Shown here piece by piece: positions 2,762 to 15,369 of a stretch of 64,000 bases of DNA. This DNA comes from Aerosticca soli. GTDB lineage: Bacteria > Pseudomonadota > Gammaproteobacteria > Xanthomonadales > Rhodanobacteraceae. The notes beneath the pieces are model-generated. The model saw only the letters and a list, made by a program, of their open reading frames with translations, was not told the DNA's origin and made no database searches. Positions within the stretch are counted from its first letter, which is position 1, and each line of letters starts with the position of its first letter. Location: positions 1,201,001 through 1,265,000 of the forward strand of contig NZ_AP018560.1 of NCBI RefSeq assembly GCF_003967035.1, read 5' to 3'. Position numbers and translations under genes: made by a program.

Positions 2762-3250
<489 letters not shown>

Positions 3251-4462: not shown

Positions 4463-4535
4463 ACGGCATGCATCCCGGATCCTCAACGGCCGGATGATAC
4501 ACTAGCCGCCGATGTCGGCGTCGCGGGGAAACGCA

Positions 4536-4949
4536 ATGGAACAGGAATCGCGCGAATTGCGTCGGGTCGGCCTCAAGGTGACCCACCCGCGCATGCGCAT
4601 CCTGCAGCTCTTCGAGGAAGATGGCGAGCGTCATTTCACGGCCGAAGACATCTACAAGCGGCTCCTGGCGGACCAGGAAGACATCGGCCTTGCCACCGTC
4701 TACCGGGTGCTGACCCAGTTCGAGGCGGCCGGCATCCTGATCAAGCACAATTTCGAGGGCGGCCAGGCCGTCTACGAGCTGGACCGCGGTCGTCACCATG
4801 ACCACATGATCGACGTCGACACCGGCAAGGTGATCGAGTTCGTCAGCGAGGAGATCGAACGCCTGCAGCGGGAGATCGCGGCCAAGCACGGTTACGTGCT
4901 CGAGGACCACAGCCTGGTCCTCTACGTACGGGCCAAGCGTCCGAAATAG
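4536..4949 (+). CDS. fur: Ferric uptake regulator Fur
   Basis: 137-residue iron-responsive repressor. The winged helix (LKVTHPRMRILQLF, then GLATVYRVLTQFEAAGI) is followed by the metal-binding dimerisation domain with HHDH at 87-90. The C-terminal CxxC pair that binds structural zinc in E. coli Fur is replaced by DVDTGKVIEF, so this Fur must fold without that zinc site. ATG 4536 is preferred over 4512, because a likely -10 (TACACT, 4498-4503) would place the transcript start close to 4512. It is divergent from bamE across a 73-bp gap. Confidence 0.94.
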   Translation: MEQESRELRRVGLKVTHPRMRILQLFEEDGERHFTAEDIYKRLLADQEDIGLATVYRVLTQFEAAGILIKHNFEGGQAVYELDRGRHHDHMIDVDTGKVIEFVSEEIERLQREIAAKHGYVLEDHSLVLYVRAKRPK

Positions 4950-4956
4950 CGGACAG

Positions 4957-4992
4957 AAAAAAGCCGCGGGTGGACTCCTGTCCTCCCACGGC
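4957..4992 (-). terminator. Intrinsic terminator of the candidate small RNA
   Basis: Minus-strand stem GCCGTGGG/CCCGCGGC (4985-4992 with 4963-4970) continues after an A-A mismatch into GGAC/GTCC closed by the loop AGGA. It is followed by six U (4957-4962). The U run exists only on the minus strand, so it does not serve fur, which ends at 4949 on the other strand. The AGGA loop makes the terminator itself a potential CsrA site. Confidence 0.8.
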
Positions 4993-5150
4993 TGGCCGGT
5001 TGCACGTTGCCTGAAACGCGAATTGCTCGCCGTGTTCGAGGCTTCCTGCGACCGGTGGAACGGCTCCTGCCATTCCCTTCAGGACCCGCCGTCCCCACGG
5101 CTGTCCTGACGCATCACCTCGCGGTGATGGCTCCCCCACATCGATGACAC
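4957..5150 (-). ncRNA. Candidate CsrA/RsmA-binding small RNA (CsrB/RsmZ-like)
   Basis: A non-coding minus-strand transcript of about 190 nt is predicted between the histidine kinase stop and fur. Its hairpins are CATCACC-GCGA-GGTGATG (5112-5129); TCAGGAC..GTCCTGA enclosing GCCGT-GGGG-ACGGC (5079-5109); an 8-bp stem with loop AGGA (5057-5076); and the terminator stem, also with loop AGGA (4963-4992). About nine GGA triplets occur, several exposed in loops, which is the architecture of RNAs that titrate CsrA/RsmA. TAGCAT (5152-5157) is a possible -10 element. No sequence match to 6S, 4.5S or RNase P RNA was recognised. The start is approximate and the function inferred; it could instead be a structured 3' UTR of the kinase. 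Confidence 0.55.
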
Positions 5151-5182
5151 AATGCTAACGGGCCTTTCACGTCGCCGGTATC

Positions 5183-5193
5183 GGAAAAATTCC
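5183..5193 (-). promoter_or_regulatory. Inverted repeat upstream of the candidate small RNA
   Basis: GGAATTTTTCC, an A/T-centred inverted repeat (GGAA-TTT-TTCC) in otherwise GC-rich DNA, overlaps the last base of the histidine kinase gene. It lies about 30 bp upstream of the putative -10 TAGCAT, where a -35 element should be but none is recognisable. This is where a class II activator would sit. A NarL-family regulator is encoded nearby (6846-7484) and is the obvious candidate. The inverted repeat is seen directly; the rest is inference. Confidence 0.4.
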
Positions 5194-6791
5194 TAGTCCC
5201 GGCCCCTTTGCCATGACGGGGGTGGCTGTCCCACCAGAAGGATGCGCAGATGGGTGCCGGCGCTCTCGCGGCGCACCGTAAATAGGCCGCCCAAGGCCAG
5301 GACGCGGTCGCGCATCCCTTGCAGGCCCCGGCCGCCGCGAGGCAGGGGCTCGGGCAGGCCCACGCCGTCATCGCGAATGTCGAGCAGGGCGAGCACGGCG
5401 CCATGGCGCCGACCTATGCGCAGCCTGAAGCGAAAAGAGCCGGCGCCGGCATGACGGACTGCATTGGTCGCGCTTTCCTGGACCAGCCGATAGATGGTGT
5501 TGCCGGTTTCCTCGTCCAGCAGACGGGCGTCGCCGTGCAGCTGGCAGGTGTACTGCATGCCCGCGGCGTGCAGGAGTTCGCGGATCGGCCCTTCCTCGAG
5601 GGCGCGGAACAGGCCGAACTCGTCGAGCACGGCGGGCCGCAGATCGTCCATCACCCGATGCAGCACGCGGCGCATGTGCACCAGGATGGCGTGGATCGAG
5701 GTGCCCAGATCGTCGATGCCGGCGCTGCGCAGGCGACCTTCGACGAGCTTGAGCCGGGTCTGGATGGCGGCGATGTTCTGGCCGAATTCGTCGTGCAGTT
5801 CGGCCGCCAGATGGCGGCGCAGGTTTTCCTCGCTCTGCAGGTTGCCGCGCGCGGCCTGGCGCAGTTGGCGGGTCAGCCGGTCCAGCCGGCGATTGGCGGC
5901 TTCCAGGCGCCGGTTCTGCTCGGCCAGGCGTACGCTGGTGCGGCGCAAGGCATCGCAGGCCGAGCCCAGCATCAGCGCGCCGGTGCCGGCAATGGCGAGA
6001 AACAGGTGGCTGAAGGTCTCCACCGGCCGGCCCAGGCTGTGGTCGACCGTCGCCAGCGTCAGGCTGGTGATCGACAGCGCCAGGCTGGCGCCGCGCCATC
6101 CGTGCCTGAAGGCGAAGAACAGCACCGGGGCGAGGGCGAGCACGCGGGCCAGCTGCGGCTGCGGGGCGCCGTGTCTTGCCAGCATGAGCAGGAGGGCGAT
6201 GGTCGGCAGCATGACCAGCATGCCGTCCATGAGCAGCGCGGCCAGTGCGCGCGGACTGGGGCGTGCGCGGGCCAGCATGACCACCAGCGGCGCCACCAGC
6301 AAGGTGCCGACGTAATGGTCGAGCATCTGCTGGCCGAGCCAGTTCCAGATCATGTCTGAGACGGCGACCTGGTGGATCAGCGACAAGGTGGTCGCTTCCA
6401 CGGCGGCGGTCGCCGCGATCGCCAGCACGATCGACAAGAAAAGGCGCGTGGTGTCTTCCGGCGTGCGCAGGCTGGCCCGCAGGCTCGCGCGACGCAGGAT
6501 GGCGAGCACCGCGGCGACAGTCAGCGGCACCGGCAGATCGCCGGCCAGGAAGGTCAGCCAGTCCCATCCTCGATGGACAGTGTGAAGATCGACCAGCGCC
6601 GTGGCGACCAGCTCGCCCCCGAGCAGCCAGGGCCATTGCCGCAGCGGCGTGACCAGCAGCACCGCGAAGCGCAGCCCGAACGGCAGCATCCAGCGGAACC
6701 GCTCGGCGGGCCCGAGGGCAAACCACAACAGGGCATAGACCGCGCCCGACAGGGGGCCTTCAAGGCGCGAGGGCGGGCTTTTCGCGGACAT
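5193..6791 (-). CDS. MASE1-like sensor histidine kinase (HisKA_3, NarL-type system)
   Basis: 532-residue membrane kinase. Residues 15-280 hold about eight hydrophobic segments resembling the MASE1 sensor domain, and a coiled linker follows at 285-320. The HisKA_3 box LAAELHDEFGQNIAAIQTRL carries the phospho-accepting H333, and the HATPase has the N-box RLVQESATNAVRHA and G-boxes DIRDDGVGLP and GRGLQGMRDRV. The start at ATG 6791 leaves a 54-bp divergent gap to its probable partner regulator. The ligand is unknown. The stop is followed by the inverted repeat and the candidate small RNA on the same strand, so kinase read-through into the RNA is possible. Confidence 0.88.
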   Translation of the reverse strand: MSAKSPPSRLEGPLSGAVYALLWFALGPAERFRWMLPFGLRFAVLLVTPLRQWPWLLGGELVATALVDLHTVHRGWDWLTFLAGDLPVPLTVAAVLAILRRASLRASLRTPEDTTRLFLSIVLAIAATAAVEATTLSLIHQVAVSDMIWNWLGQQMLDHYVGTLLVAPLVVMLARARPSPRALAALLMDGMLVMLPTIALLLMLARHGAPQPQLARVLALAPVLFFAFRHGWRGASLALSITSLTLATVDHSLGRPVETFSHLFLAIAGTGALMLGSACDALRRTSVRLAEQNRRLEAANRRLDRLTRQLRQAARGNLQSEENLRRHLAAELHDEFGQNIAAIQTRLKLVEGRLRSAGIDDLGTSIHAILVHMRRVLHRVMDDLRPAVLDEFGLFRALEEGPIRELLHAAGMQYTCQLHGDARLLDEETGNTIYRLVQESATNAVRHAGAGSFRFRLRIGRRHGAVLALLDIRDDGVGLPEPLPRGGRGLQGMRDRVLALGGLFTVRRESAGTHLRILLVGQPPPSWQRGRD

Positions 6792-6845: not shown

Positions 6846-7484
6846 ATGTGCAGCATTGTTCTGGTCGATGACCATGCGATCGTGCGCGAGGGCTTCAAGC
6901 GGCTCATCGAGCAGGAGGCGGATTTCGTCGTCGTGGCCGAATGCCGCTGCGCGGAAGAGGCTGTCGAGGCGATCGGCCAGCATCGGCCGGACCTGGTCGC
7001 GCTGGATCTTTCCCTGCCCGACGGCAGCGGGCTGCCGCTGCTCGAGCACCTGCGCAGCGTGGCGCCGGCCACCCGCATCGTGGTGCTCAGCATGCATGAC
7101 AGCGAGCCCTACGTGACCGAGGCGCTGCGCCGTGGCGCGAGCGGTTACGTCACCAAGGGCACGGCGCCGGAGGAACTCATCGCCGGTCTGCGGGCGGTGA
7201 TGGACGGGACGTGTTTCTTGAGTTCGGACCTGCGCCAGCGCCGTGCGGCCCGGCCGGCCGCGGCGCTGGATCCGCTGGCGCGACTCACCGCTCGCGAGCG
7301 CGAGGTGTTCCTGCTGCTGGCCGCCGGACGGACGCCCAAGCAGGCGGCCGCCGAGCTCGGCGTCGGCCAGAAAACGGTCTACATCCATCGCGCCAGCCTG
7401 ATGGGCAAGCTCGGTGCGGGTTCGGAGCTGGATCTCTACCGGCTGGCGGTCGAACGCGGGCTGCTGCCGCGCCCGCCGGGGTGA
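6846..7484 (+). CDS. NarL/UhpA-family response regulator
   Basis: 212-residue regulator: receiver domain with phospho-acceptor D54 in LVALDLSLPDG, acidic pair VDDH at 7-10 and K104, followed by a LuxR-type helix-turn-helix at about 147-190 (LTAREREVFLLLAAG, TPKQAAAELGVGQKTVYIHR). It is the same architecture as GacA, UhpA and NarL. Transcribed divergently from the MASE1 kinase with only 54 bp between starts, so the two are very likely cognate and co-regulated. The small-RNA promoter next to the kinase is a plausible target, but this is not shown. Confidence 0.92.
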   Translation: MCSIVLVDDHAIVREGFKRLIEQEADFVVVAECRCAEEAVEAIGQHRPDLVALDLSLPDGSGLPLLEHLRSVAPATRIVVLSMHDSEPYVTEALRRGASGYVTKGTAPEELIAGLRAVMDGTCFLSSDLRQRRAARPAAALDPLARLTAREREVFLLLAAGRTPKQAAAELGVGQKTVYIHRASLMGKLGAGSELDLYRLAVERGLLPRPPG

Positions 7485-15113: not shown

Positions 15114-15179
15114 AGCGCCGCGGCACGCCGGCCTGCGCGCCTTGTTTCATCGGCGCACGCCCGCTAGCATGCGCCGCTT

Positions 15180-15310
15180 CGTCATTGGGGAGTAGCCATC
15201 CCGTCGCTCACGGCGCGGGAATCCGGGTCAACATCCTTGGGGTTTGCAAGACCTCATGGTCCGGATGGCCGCATGGACGGCCCGGCGAGACCTTTGGCCA
15301 CGACATGCCA
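15180..15310 (+). promoter_or_regulatory. yybP-ykoY manganese riboswitch
   Basis: The 5' leader of the exchanger gene contains all three conserved blocks of the yybP-ykoY aptamer in order: GGGGAGTAG (15187-15195), GTCAACATCCTTGG (15227-15240) and GGCGAGACC (15284-15292). They are separated by helices such as the pair around ATCCCG/CGGGAAT. This aptamer binds Mn2+ and switches on Mn efflux genes. I see no U run before the start codon at 15370, so control is more likely at translation than by termination. Exact borders are estimates. Confidence 0.85.
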
Positions 15311-15369
15311 CCGGCTGGGCGGCGGTGTCGTCGCGCCATCGGTCAAGTGCCGCCCGGCCCGGAACGAGC

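Follow-up and report, generated by a model that had tools for sequence, protein, structure and literature searches.

A small RNA gene between a histidine kinase gene and fur

The 64,000-nucleotide stretch of the Aerosticca soli chromosome analysed here (contig NZ_AP018560.1, positions 1,201,001 to 1,265,000, forward strand; hereafter the window) carries a compact run of minus-strand stem-loops in the gap between a sensor histidine kinase gene and fur. This run very likely represents a real, conserved and structured small RNA with a promoter-like block of its own. An earlier note on this DNA, made from the letters alone, had proposed such a run with two AGGA loops, one of them in an intrinsic terminator, and a third loop of GGGG followed by A; it was right about the coordinates, strand and hairpins, and all three loops are present. 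The parts of the RNA are given below, a cell being one base pair in one sequence of an alignment of 30 close homologues.

4957..5145, minus strand: small RNA gene, about 189 nucleotides (nt); 5' end deduced from the -10 box and 3' end from the T-run, with the alignment of 30 homologues as evidence
5132..5139, minus strand: 5' GTGGGGGA, candidate CsrA site of uncertain pairing state; invariant in 30 of 30 homologues
5112..5129, minus strand: stem-loop 1, with a GNRA-type loop, GCGA, that holds no GGA; double changes in 3 of 7 pairs, 100% of cells paired
5079..5109, minus strand: stem-loop 2, with a GGGG loop and then A (5096-5092); double changes in 5 of 11 pairs, loop invariant in 30 of 30
5057..5076, minus strand: stem-loop 3, with an AGGA loop (5068-5065), candidate CsrA site; from fold and alignment, double change in 1 of 5 pairs
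5018..5030, minus strand: stem-loop 4, core GCGAGCAATTCGC; 99.3% of cells paired
4957..4993, minus strand: stem-loop 5, the intrinsic terminator, with an AGGA loop (4979-4976) and six T; from fold and alignment, GGA in the loop of 44 of 45 homologues

The 194 nt read on the minus strand from 5150 to 4957 fold at -104 kcal/mol (z-score -6.4; 0 of 200 shuffles fold as well), and the trimmed RNA, 5143-4957, reaches a z-score of -5.4. Because the plus strand of the same stretch folds about equally well (z-score -6.5), folding energy does not decide between the strands; the T-run, the promoter-like block and the G-U pairs of the minus-strand reading argue for the minus strand. Of the covariation cells, 73 are G-U pairs, and an RNA read from the plus strand would have A-C mismatches in their place. 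Over the 30 loci, the consensus RNA continues 5' to 3' after the -10 box with ATCGATGTGGGGGAGCC, stem-loop 1 (CCATC-GCAA-GATGG), stem-loop 2 (CCGT-GGGG-ACGG), stem-loop 3 (GGC-AGGA-GCC), stem-loop 4 (GCGAG-CAA-CTCGC) and the terminator (GGAC-AGGA-GTCC and a T-run), and a 3' hairpin followed by at least six T is present in all 30 close homologues.

Conservation and covariation within the family

The RNA recurs throughout most of the family sampled, which we take to be Rhodanobacteraceae; this and all other genome sets are samples of larger groups. A DNA search matched 106 of 147 family genomes at an expectation value (E) of at most 0.1, in 25 of 26 genera, the weaker matches being short and chance-like, and the 29 homologous loci retrieved besides the window's own are 73 to 80% identical. 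A covariance model of 196 positions, R1, matches the window over its full length at 4956-5145, the window's own sequence being part of the model; in 398 genomes of the order it matched 98 at E of at most 0.1, 96 of them in the family. The two matches outside the family (G199 and G436, E 0.03 and 0.06) had no kinase, regulator, fur or bamE match within about 3 kb and were taken as chance.

A second model, R2, spans the promoter block and the 5' half of the RNA and was built from 33 diverse homologues, which match it by construction. It matched 102 of the 398 genomes of the order, 99 of them strongly (E of at most 4e-21) and all 99 in the family, and three weakly; across 274 genomes of the class, the window's own genome was the sole match. 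In a search of 144 family genomes, 94 matched at E of at most 0.01, 91 of them at E of at most 6e-13. The covariance search of relatives that the earlier note had suggested thus yields strong R2 matches in 19 of the 26 sampled genera and any match in 22, of which g2, g5 and g26 have weak matches only. Both models were run with stricter filters under which weak matches may be lost, and the R2 matches in G247, G119, G130 and G001:C47, together with second matches in G009 and G038, were counted as chance. In two genus-g2 loci (L126 and L127), the RNA behind the promoter dyad has diverged beyond R2 and is still GGA-rich. One genome has a second strong R2 match (G138:C57:2804-2940, 68 bits) beside its kinase-linked one, either a duplicate RNA or a contaminating contig.

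For the covariation count we specified a structure of 45 pairs in 30 sequences, or 1350 cells, excluding two helices of the RNAalifold consensus; the loci were all oriented to one strand and then aligned. Pairing is kept in 97.6% of the cells and falls to 34-49% when the partners are slid out of register; both partners have changed in 75 cells, which belong to 16 of the 45 pairs. The covariation score is 0.230 against 0.120 in shuffles, of which 0 of 500 reach the observed value; kinship alone can beat shuffles without any structure, but this is rare for counts of doubly changed pairs. In the wider alignment of 33 sequences, double changes occur in 15 of 25 predicted pairs, and most stem pairs of stem-loop 2 vary with the G-run kept; this alignment contains promoter columns, where four dyad "pairs" reflect DNA symmetry rather than RNA. 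The earlier note had named, as one result that would overturn its reading, hairpin loops that vary among relatives with conserved flanking genes; the reading survived this check, and the loops are among the most conserved columns of the 30-homologue alignment.

GGA motifs in the loops

A GGA core is what CsrA dimers bind. The earlier note had counted about nine GGA and called this an excess; the count stands, at 9 in 194 nt, where dinucleotide shuffling gives 5.5 (standard deviation 1.7; p about 0.04), and same-length overlapping tiles on both strands of the window (n = 1316) hold 2.6 GGA on average, with 0.2% reaching 9. The placement of GGA in loops, rather than its count, is what stands out. 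In a wide set of 45 homologues (the 30 close and 15 diverged ones, which are related and do not amount to 45 independent tests), the mean number of GGA in hairpin loops is 2.93, against 0.63 in shuffles. The AGGA, AGGA and GGGGA loops and the 5' GTGGGGGA are all invariant in 30 of 30 close homologues.

The terminator loop keeps its GGA in 44 of the 45 homologues despite replacement of the stem in several lineages, diverged examples being GAAGAAC-ATGGA-GTTCTTC, CGGT-CACGGATC-ACCG and GGCAC-AAGGA-CGTGCC. Among terminator-like hairpins of the window and of loci L067-L136, 59 of 144 have GGA in the loop; of the 94 that do not belong to the RNA, 9 do. The other 50 were assigned to the RNA (47 by string match; L075, L081 and L129 by position), and because loci overlap some hairpins are counted twice. 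An ANGGA retained in the loop of a rewritten stem is what CsrA recognition would select.

A conserved promoter-like block

Upstream of the RNA lie two further conserved elements.

5183..5195, minus strand: promoter dyad TAGGAATTTTTCC, likely response-regulator site from its conservation, its centre lying some 43 nt before the presumed first base of the RNA
5152..5158, minus strand: -10-like box TTAGCAT; 37 nt from dyad start to box start

The block has the consensus TAGGAAwTTTTCCrATACC, six variable bases, GTgAA, four bases, tCG and a TTAG-type -10 box across the 30 loci, where the first half of the dyad, TAGGAA, is invariant (30 of 30) and the second nearly so. All 33 diverse homologues have the dyad, as TAGGAA or, in L119, as TAAGAA; its distance to the box is ungapped in 32 of 33 aligned sequences, L004 having one extra base, and in L126 and L127 it is a perfect inverted repeat, TAGGAA-AAA-TTCCTA. 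The genome holds one exact copy, at this locus, and one other site at two mismatches (L035), which lies, judged by eye, at the start of a thioesterase-like open reading frame.

No good -35 box was seen upstream of the RNA. If transcription starts 6-7 bases past the -10 box, about 43 bases separate the dyad centre from the start, a spacing at which an upstream activator can touch polymerase. The dyad resembles the sites of BvgA and RcsB, both regulators of the NarL class, and this likeness leads us to name the neighbouring NarL/UhpA-type regulator as the likely activator. The GacA/UvrY box, TGTAAG-N6-CTTACA, is typical of many sponge RNAs and does not define all of them; a genome scan for it returned 11 sites, all at two mismatches, against 13 for a control, so that control through a GacA box is not supported. 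Behind kinase paralogues about 40% identical, two loci (L135 and L136) have AT-rich dyads (CTAGAAATTTTCTAG and GAGAAATTTTCTCG) shortly past the kinase stop, as if the paralogous systems also controlled a unit placed behind the kinase.

Linkage to the adjacent two-component system

The RNA lies among the following genes.

5193..6791, minus strand: UhpB-like sensor histidine kinase with the domains MASE1-HisKA_3-HATPase_c; start placed by eye
6846..7484, plus strand: response regulator of NarL/UhpA type, oriented divergently to the kinase gene and a candidate for activating the RNA
4512..4949, plus strand: fur, convergent neighbour of the RNA, followed by bamE

In 48 of 50 loci the genes run kinase-RNA-fur-bamE, the two exceptions being weak, out-of-context matches, and the regulator adjoins the kinase in all 18 of these 48 loci that are long enough, the other 30 ending before it. 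An orthologue of the kinase (threshold at least 400 bits; next best match 337 bits) occurs in 93 of 144 family genomes, apparently the same draw of genomes as that searched with R2. Every one of the 91 genomes that match the RNA strongly has it, and a strong match occurs in 0 of 51 genomes without it; since the latter fall in about seven genera, this co-occurrence reflects few independent events, whose number its p-value overstates.

The position behind a histidine kinase, which the earlier note had stressed, applies to the loci examined with the exception of one genome, G042, whose kinase and regulator share one contig (L121), where the 420 bases that follow the kinase contain neither dyad nor RNA. 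In this genome the dyad, promoter block and RNA adjoin fur on another contig (L176), with other genes nearby and well away from the contig ends. As block and RNA stand there beside fur without the kinase genes, the RNA is probably its own transcription unit and not merely a 3' untranslated region (UTR) of the kinase message.

A kinase search of named genomes returned Frateuria sp. Soil773 and a distant, 30%-identical match in Roseinatronobacter, and no others. In a sister family, f2, some kinase match was found in 57 of 60 genomes, the best 40% identical; 20 f2 loci were retrieved, and in the 14 examined (one of them, L149, lacking a kinase match) a pattern search of the 220 bases after the kinase match gave no dyad in any, and none had a fur or bamE match within about 4.5 kb. 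The genome has one csrA match (PF02599, 91.5 bits), a 67-amino-acid open reading frame whose product looks canonical beside E. coli CsrA. Another NarL-class regulator in this genome (L157, G000:C1:1039821-1040453) is closer to GacA/UvrY (224.9 bits, cut-off 280); it adjoins an HU-like open reading frame, judged by eye, and the 3.6-kb stretch retrieved has no recognisable uvrC.

Comparison with known systems

CsrB, CsrC, RsmX, RsmY and RsmZ are names of Rfam families, and the features of these classic sponge RNAs used here for comparison are general background. The RNA has no Rfam match at gathering score; at E of at most 10, the 701-base stretch around it gives only two implausible matches (E 2.5 and 9.4), and none to the covariance models of these five families. 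Like RsmX, RsmY and RsmZ of Pseudomonas and CsrB and CsrC of enterobacteria, it has several GGA hairpin loops, an intrinsic terminator and an apparently stand-alone gene in a genome with csrA/rsmA; unlike them, it lies beside a UhpB/UhpA-like pair and fur, has GGA in its terminator loop and shows no GacA box in its promoter region. The best curated match of the kinase is UhpB, at 156 bits against a cut-off of 408, and those of the regulator are MctR, UhpA, NarL and UvrY/GacA, all below cut-off. With MASE1 and HisKA_3 domains in the kinase and a regulator of NarL/UhpA type, the pair resembles UhpBA/NarXL-type systems, none of which, to our knowledge, controls a CsrA-sponge RNA.

Within the same order, the nearest parallel is RsmU (sRX061) of Xanthomonas campestris, likewise a small RNA with GGA motifs, which binds RsmA; according to the parts of its description drawn on here, it is cut from the comEA 3' UTR and reported in Xanthomonas only (PMC7694677). 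The RNA described here differs from RsmU, so described, in lying at the kinase-fur locus rather than in the comEA 3' UTR, in its length of about 189 nt, in its own promoter-like block and in belonging to another family. Within the paper collection searched, none joins a MASE1 histidine kinase, a small RNA and CsrA, and genus names of Xanthomonadales do not occur in PMC5568370 or PMC12889724. The earlier note's suggestion of a possibly undescribed RNA thus agrees with Rfam at gathering score and with the literature searched. In our view the RNA forms a new family within a known functional class and is not a member of CsrB, RsmY, RsmZ or RsmU, the last being set apart by its description.

A probable CsrA sponge and its alternatives

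Judging from sequence and conservation, we consider it probable that this stand-alone small RNA gene of about 189 nt acts as a CsrA/RsmA sponge. Its loops are predicted to offer AGGA or GGGGA to CsrA, and an abundant RNA of this kind would pull CsrA off target mRNAs, altering their translation or stability; the neighbouring UhpB-like kinase and NarL/UhpA-like regulator may switch the RNA on through the dyad. Whether the adjacent two-component system, rather than GacA, would exert this control is about an even question on the sequence. We likewise see balanced chances for the wider proposal that this family rewired the Csr switch, such that the adjacent MASE1 kinase and NarL/UhpA-type regulator, not GacS/GacA, drive the RNA through the TAGGAA-TTCC dyad, with kinase and RNA kept or lost together, as a separately evolved CsrA input whose binding sites would include even the loop of the terminator.

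Several observations weigh against a sponge function or the control proposed for it. The GGA count alone is only mildly unusual, which tempers the excess noted earlier. L120, L128 and L130 have one hairpin-loop GGA each, no better than shuffles, and the terminator loop of L120 has none; in the genus-g25 homologues L124, L125, L128 and L130 the G-runs of the 5' site and stem-loop 2 have no following A, so these two motifs may serve another role. The earlier note had also placed a GGA in an unpaired region, which is less certain: of three structure predictions, the centroid of the trimmed RNA leaves GGGGGA at 5137-5132 unpaired, and the other two, the 194-nt fold and the RNAalifold consensus, pair it in part. 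A generic scan of 4800-5400 for sigma-70 promoters and terminators returned no match; we attribute the missed terminator to an A-A mismatch in its stem. In G001 and G026, the two genomes with the kinase and no strong RNA match, a dyad and GGA-rich sequence can be seen by eye downstream of the kinase, yet R2 has no match there. The CsrB/RsmZ-like design seen in the earlier note is borne out by the GGA in loops and by the terminator but not by the promoter region, in whose alignment no GacA box was seen. In the parts of its description drawn on here, RsmU with all four GGA changed still bound RsmA, in a smaller complex, and kept its overexpression phenotype (PMC7694677), which makes GGA a less than certain guide in this order; this caution and the uncertain 5' site slightly lower our confidence in a sponge.

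The most serious rival, which we still consider unlikely, is a base-pairing small RNA whose conserved G-rich loops (GGGG, AGGAG) pair with C/U-rich mRNA stretches, with or without Hfq, CsrA not being the main partner. Invariance of the loops among the 30 close homologues would also be expected of seeds, and the G-runs of stem-loop 2 and the 5' site are kept in genus-g25 homologues even where no A follows and GGA is lost. However, separate loops of one RNA share a GGA core, and the terminator loop varies around GGA (AGGA, ATGGA, AAGGA, ACGGA, AGGGA), a pattern more in keeping with a protein that recognises ANGGA than with an antisense seed of fixed sequence.

It is far less probable that the locus encodes only the end of the kinase message, with its 3' UTR and terminator, or a terminator that works in both directions and also serves fur, with no function in trans. 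The RNA does lie directly behind the kinase stop codon and end within about 10 nt of the fur stop, and the reverse strand of its terminator also scores weakly (17.9 bits), but five stem-loops with compensating changes go far beyond a terminator's needs, the block and RNA remain beside fur in G042 with kinase and regulator on another contig, and in L011 the fur end is about 220 nt further off. The least credible reading of all, which we rejected, is a small protein encoded from the conserved ATG of ATCGATG at the 5' end: among the 30 close homologues this frame runs for 20 to more than 60 codons without a stop, but its end points vary widely and in 17 of 30 no stop has been reached by the terminator, the ATG is missing from L117 and L118 (36 of the 45 homologues examined), and substitutions show no excess at third codon positions (41, 45 and 33 at positions 1, 2 and 3).

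Significance

Xanthomonas genomes are described as having no homologues of CsrB/RsmB, CsrC or RsmV to RsmZ in the parts of one paper drawn on here (PMC7694677), and a paper on Xanthomonas citri, also seen in part, reports no CsrB and CsrC homologues in Xanthomonas genomes (PMC7286519); in the literature examined, as far as these parts extend, RsmU is the sole RsmA-binding small RNA of the order to have been described (PMC7694677). If the reading as a sponge is true, this RNA, retained across most of a sister family, would fill a gap in the Csr circuit of such soil bacteria as Frateuria, and soil relatives of Xanthomonas would have their own version of a well-known lifestyle switch. The finding indicates a specific kinase as the likely input and comes with covariance models, and the homologue set suggests that selection keeps the loop GGA and the promoter dyad rather than the sequence of the stems.

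Other RNA features of the window

Two further RNA elements lie in the window: a transfer-messenger RNA (tmRNA) gene at 2352-2702 on the minus strand (194 bits), adjoining an smpB-like open reading frame at 2762-3250 identified by eye, and a Mn2+ riboswitch (yybP-ykoY) at 15175-15355 on the plus strand (55.5 bits).
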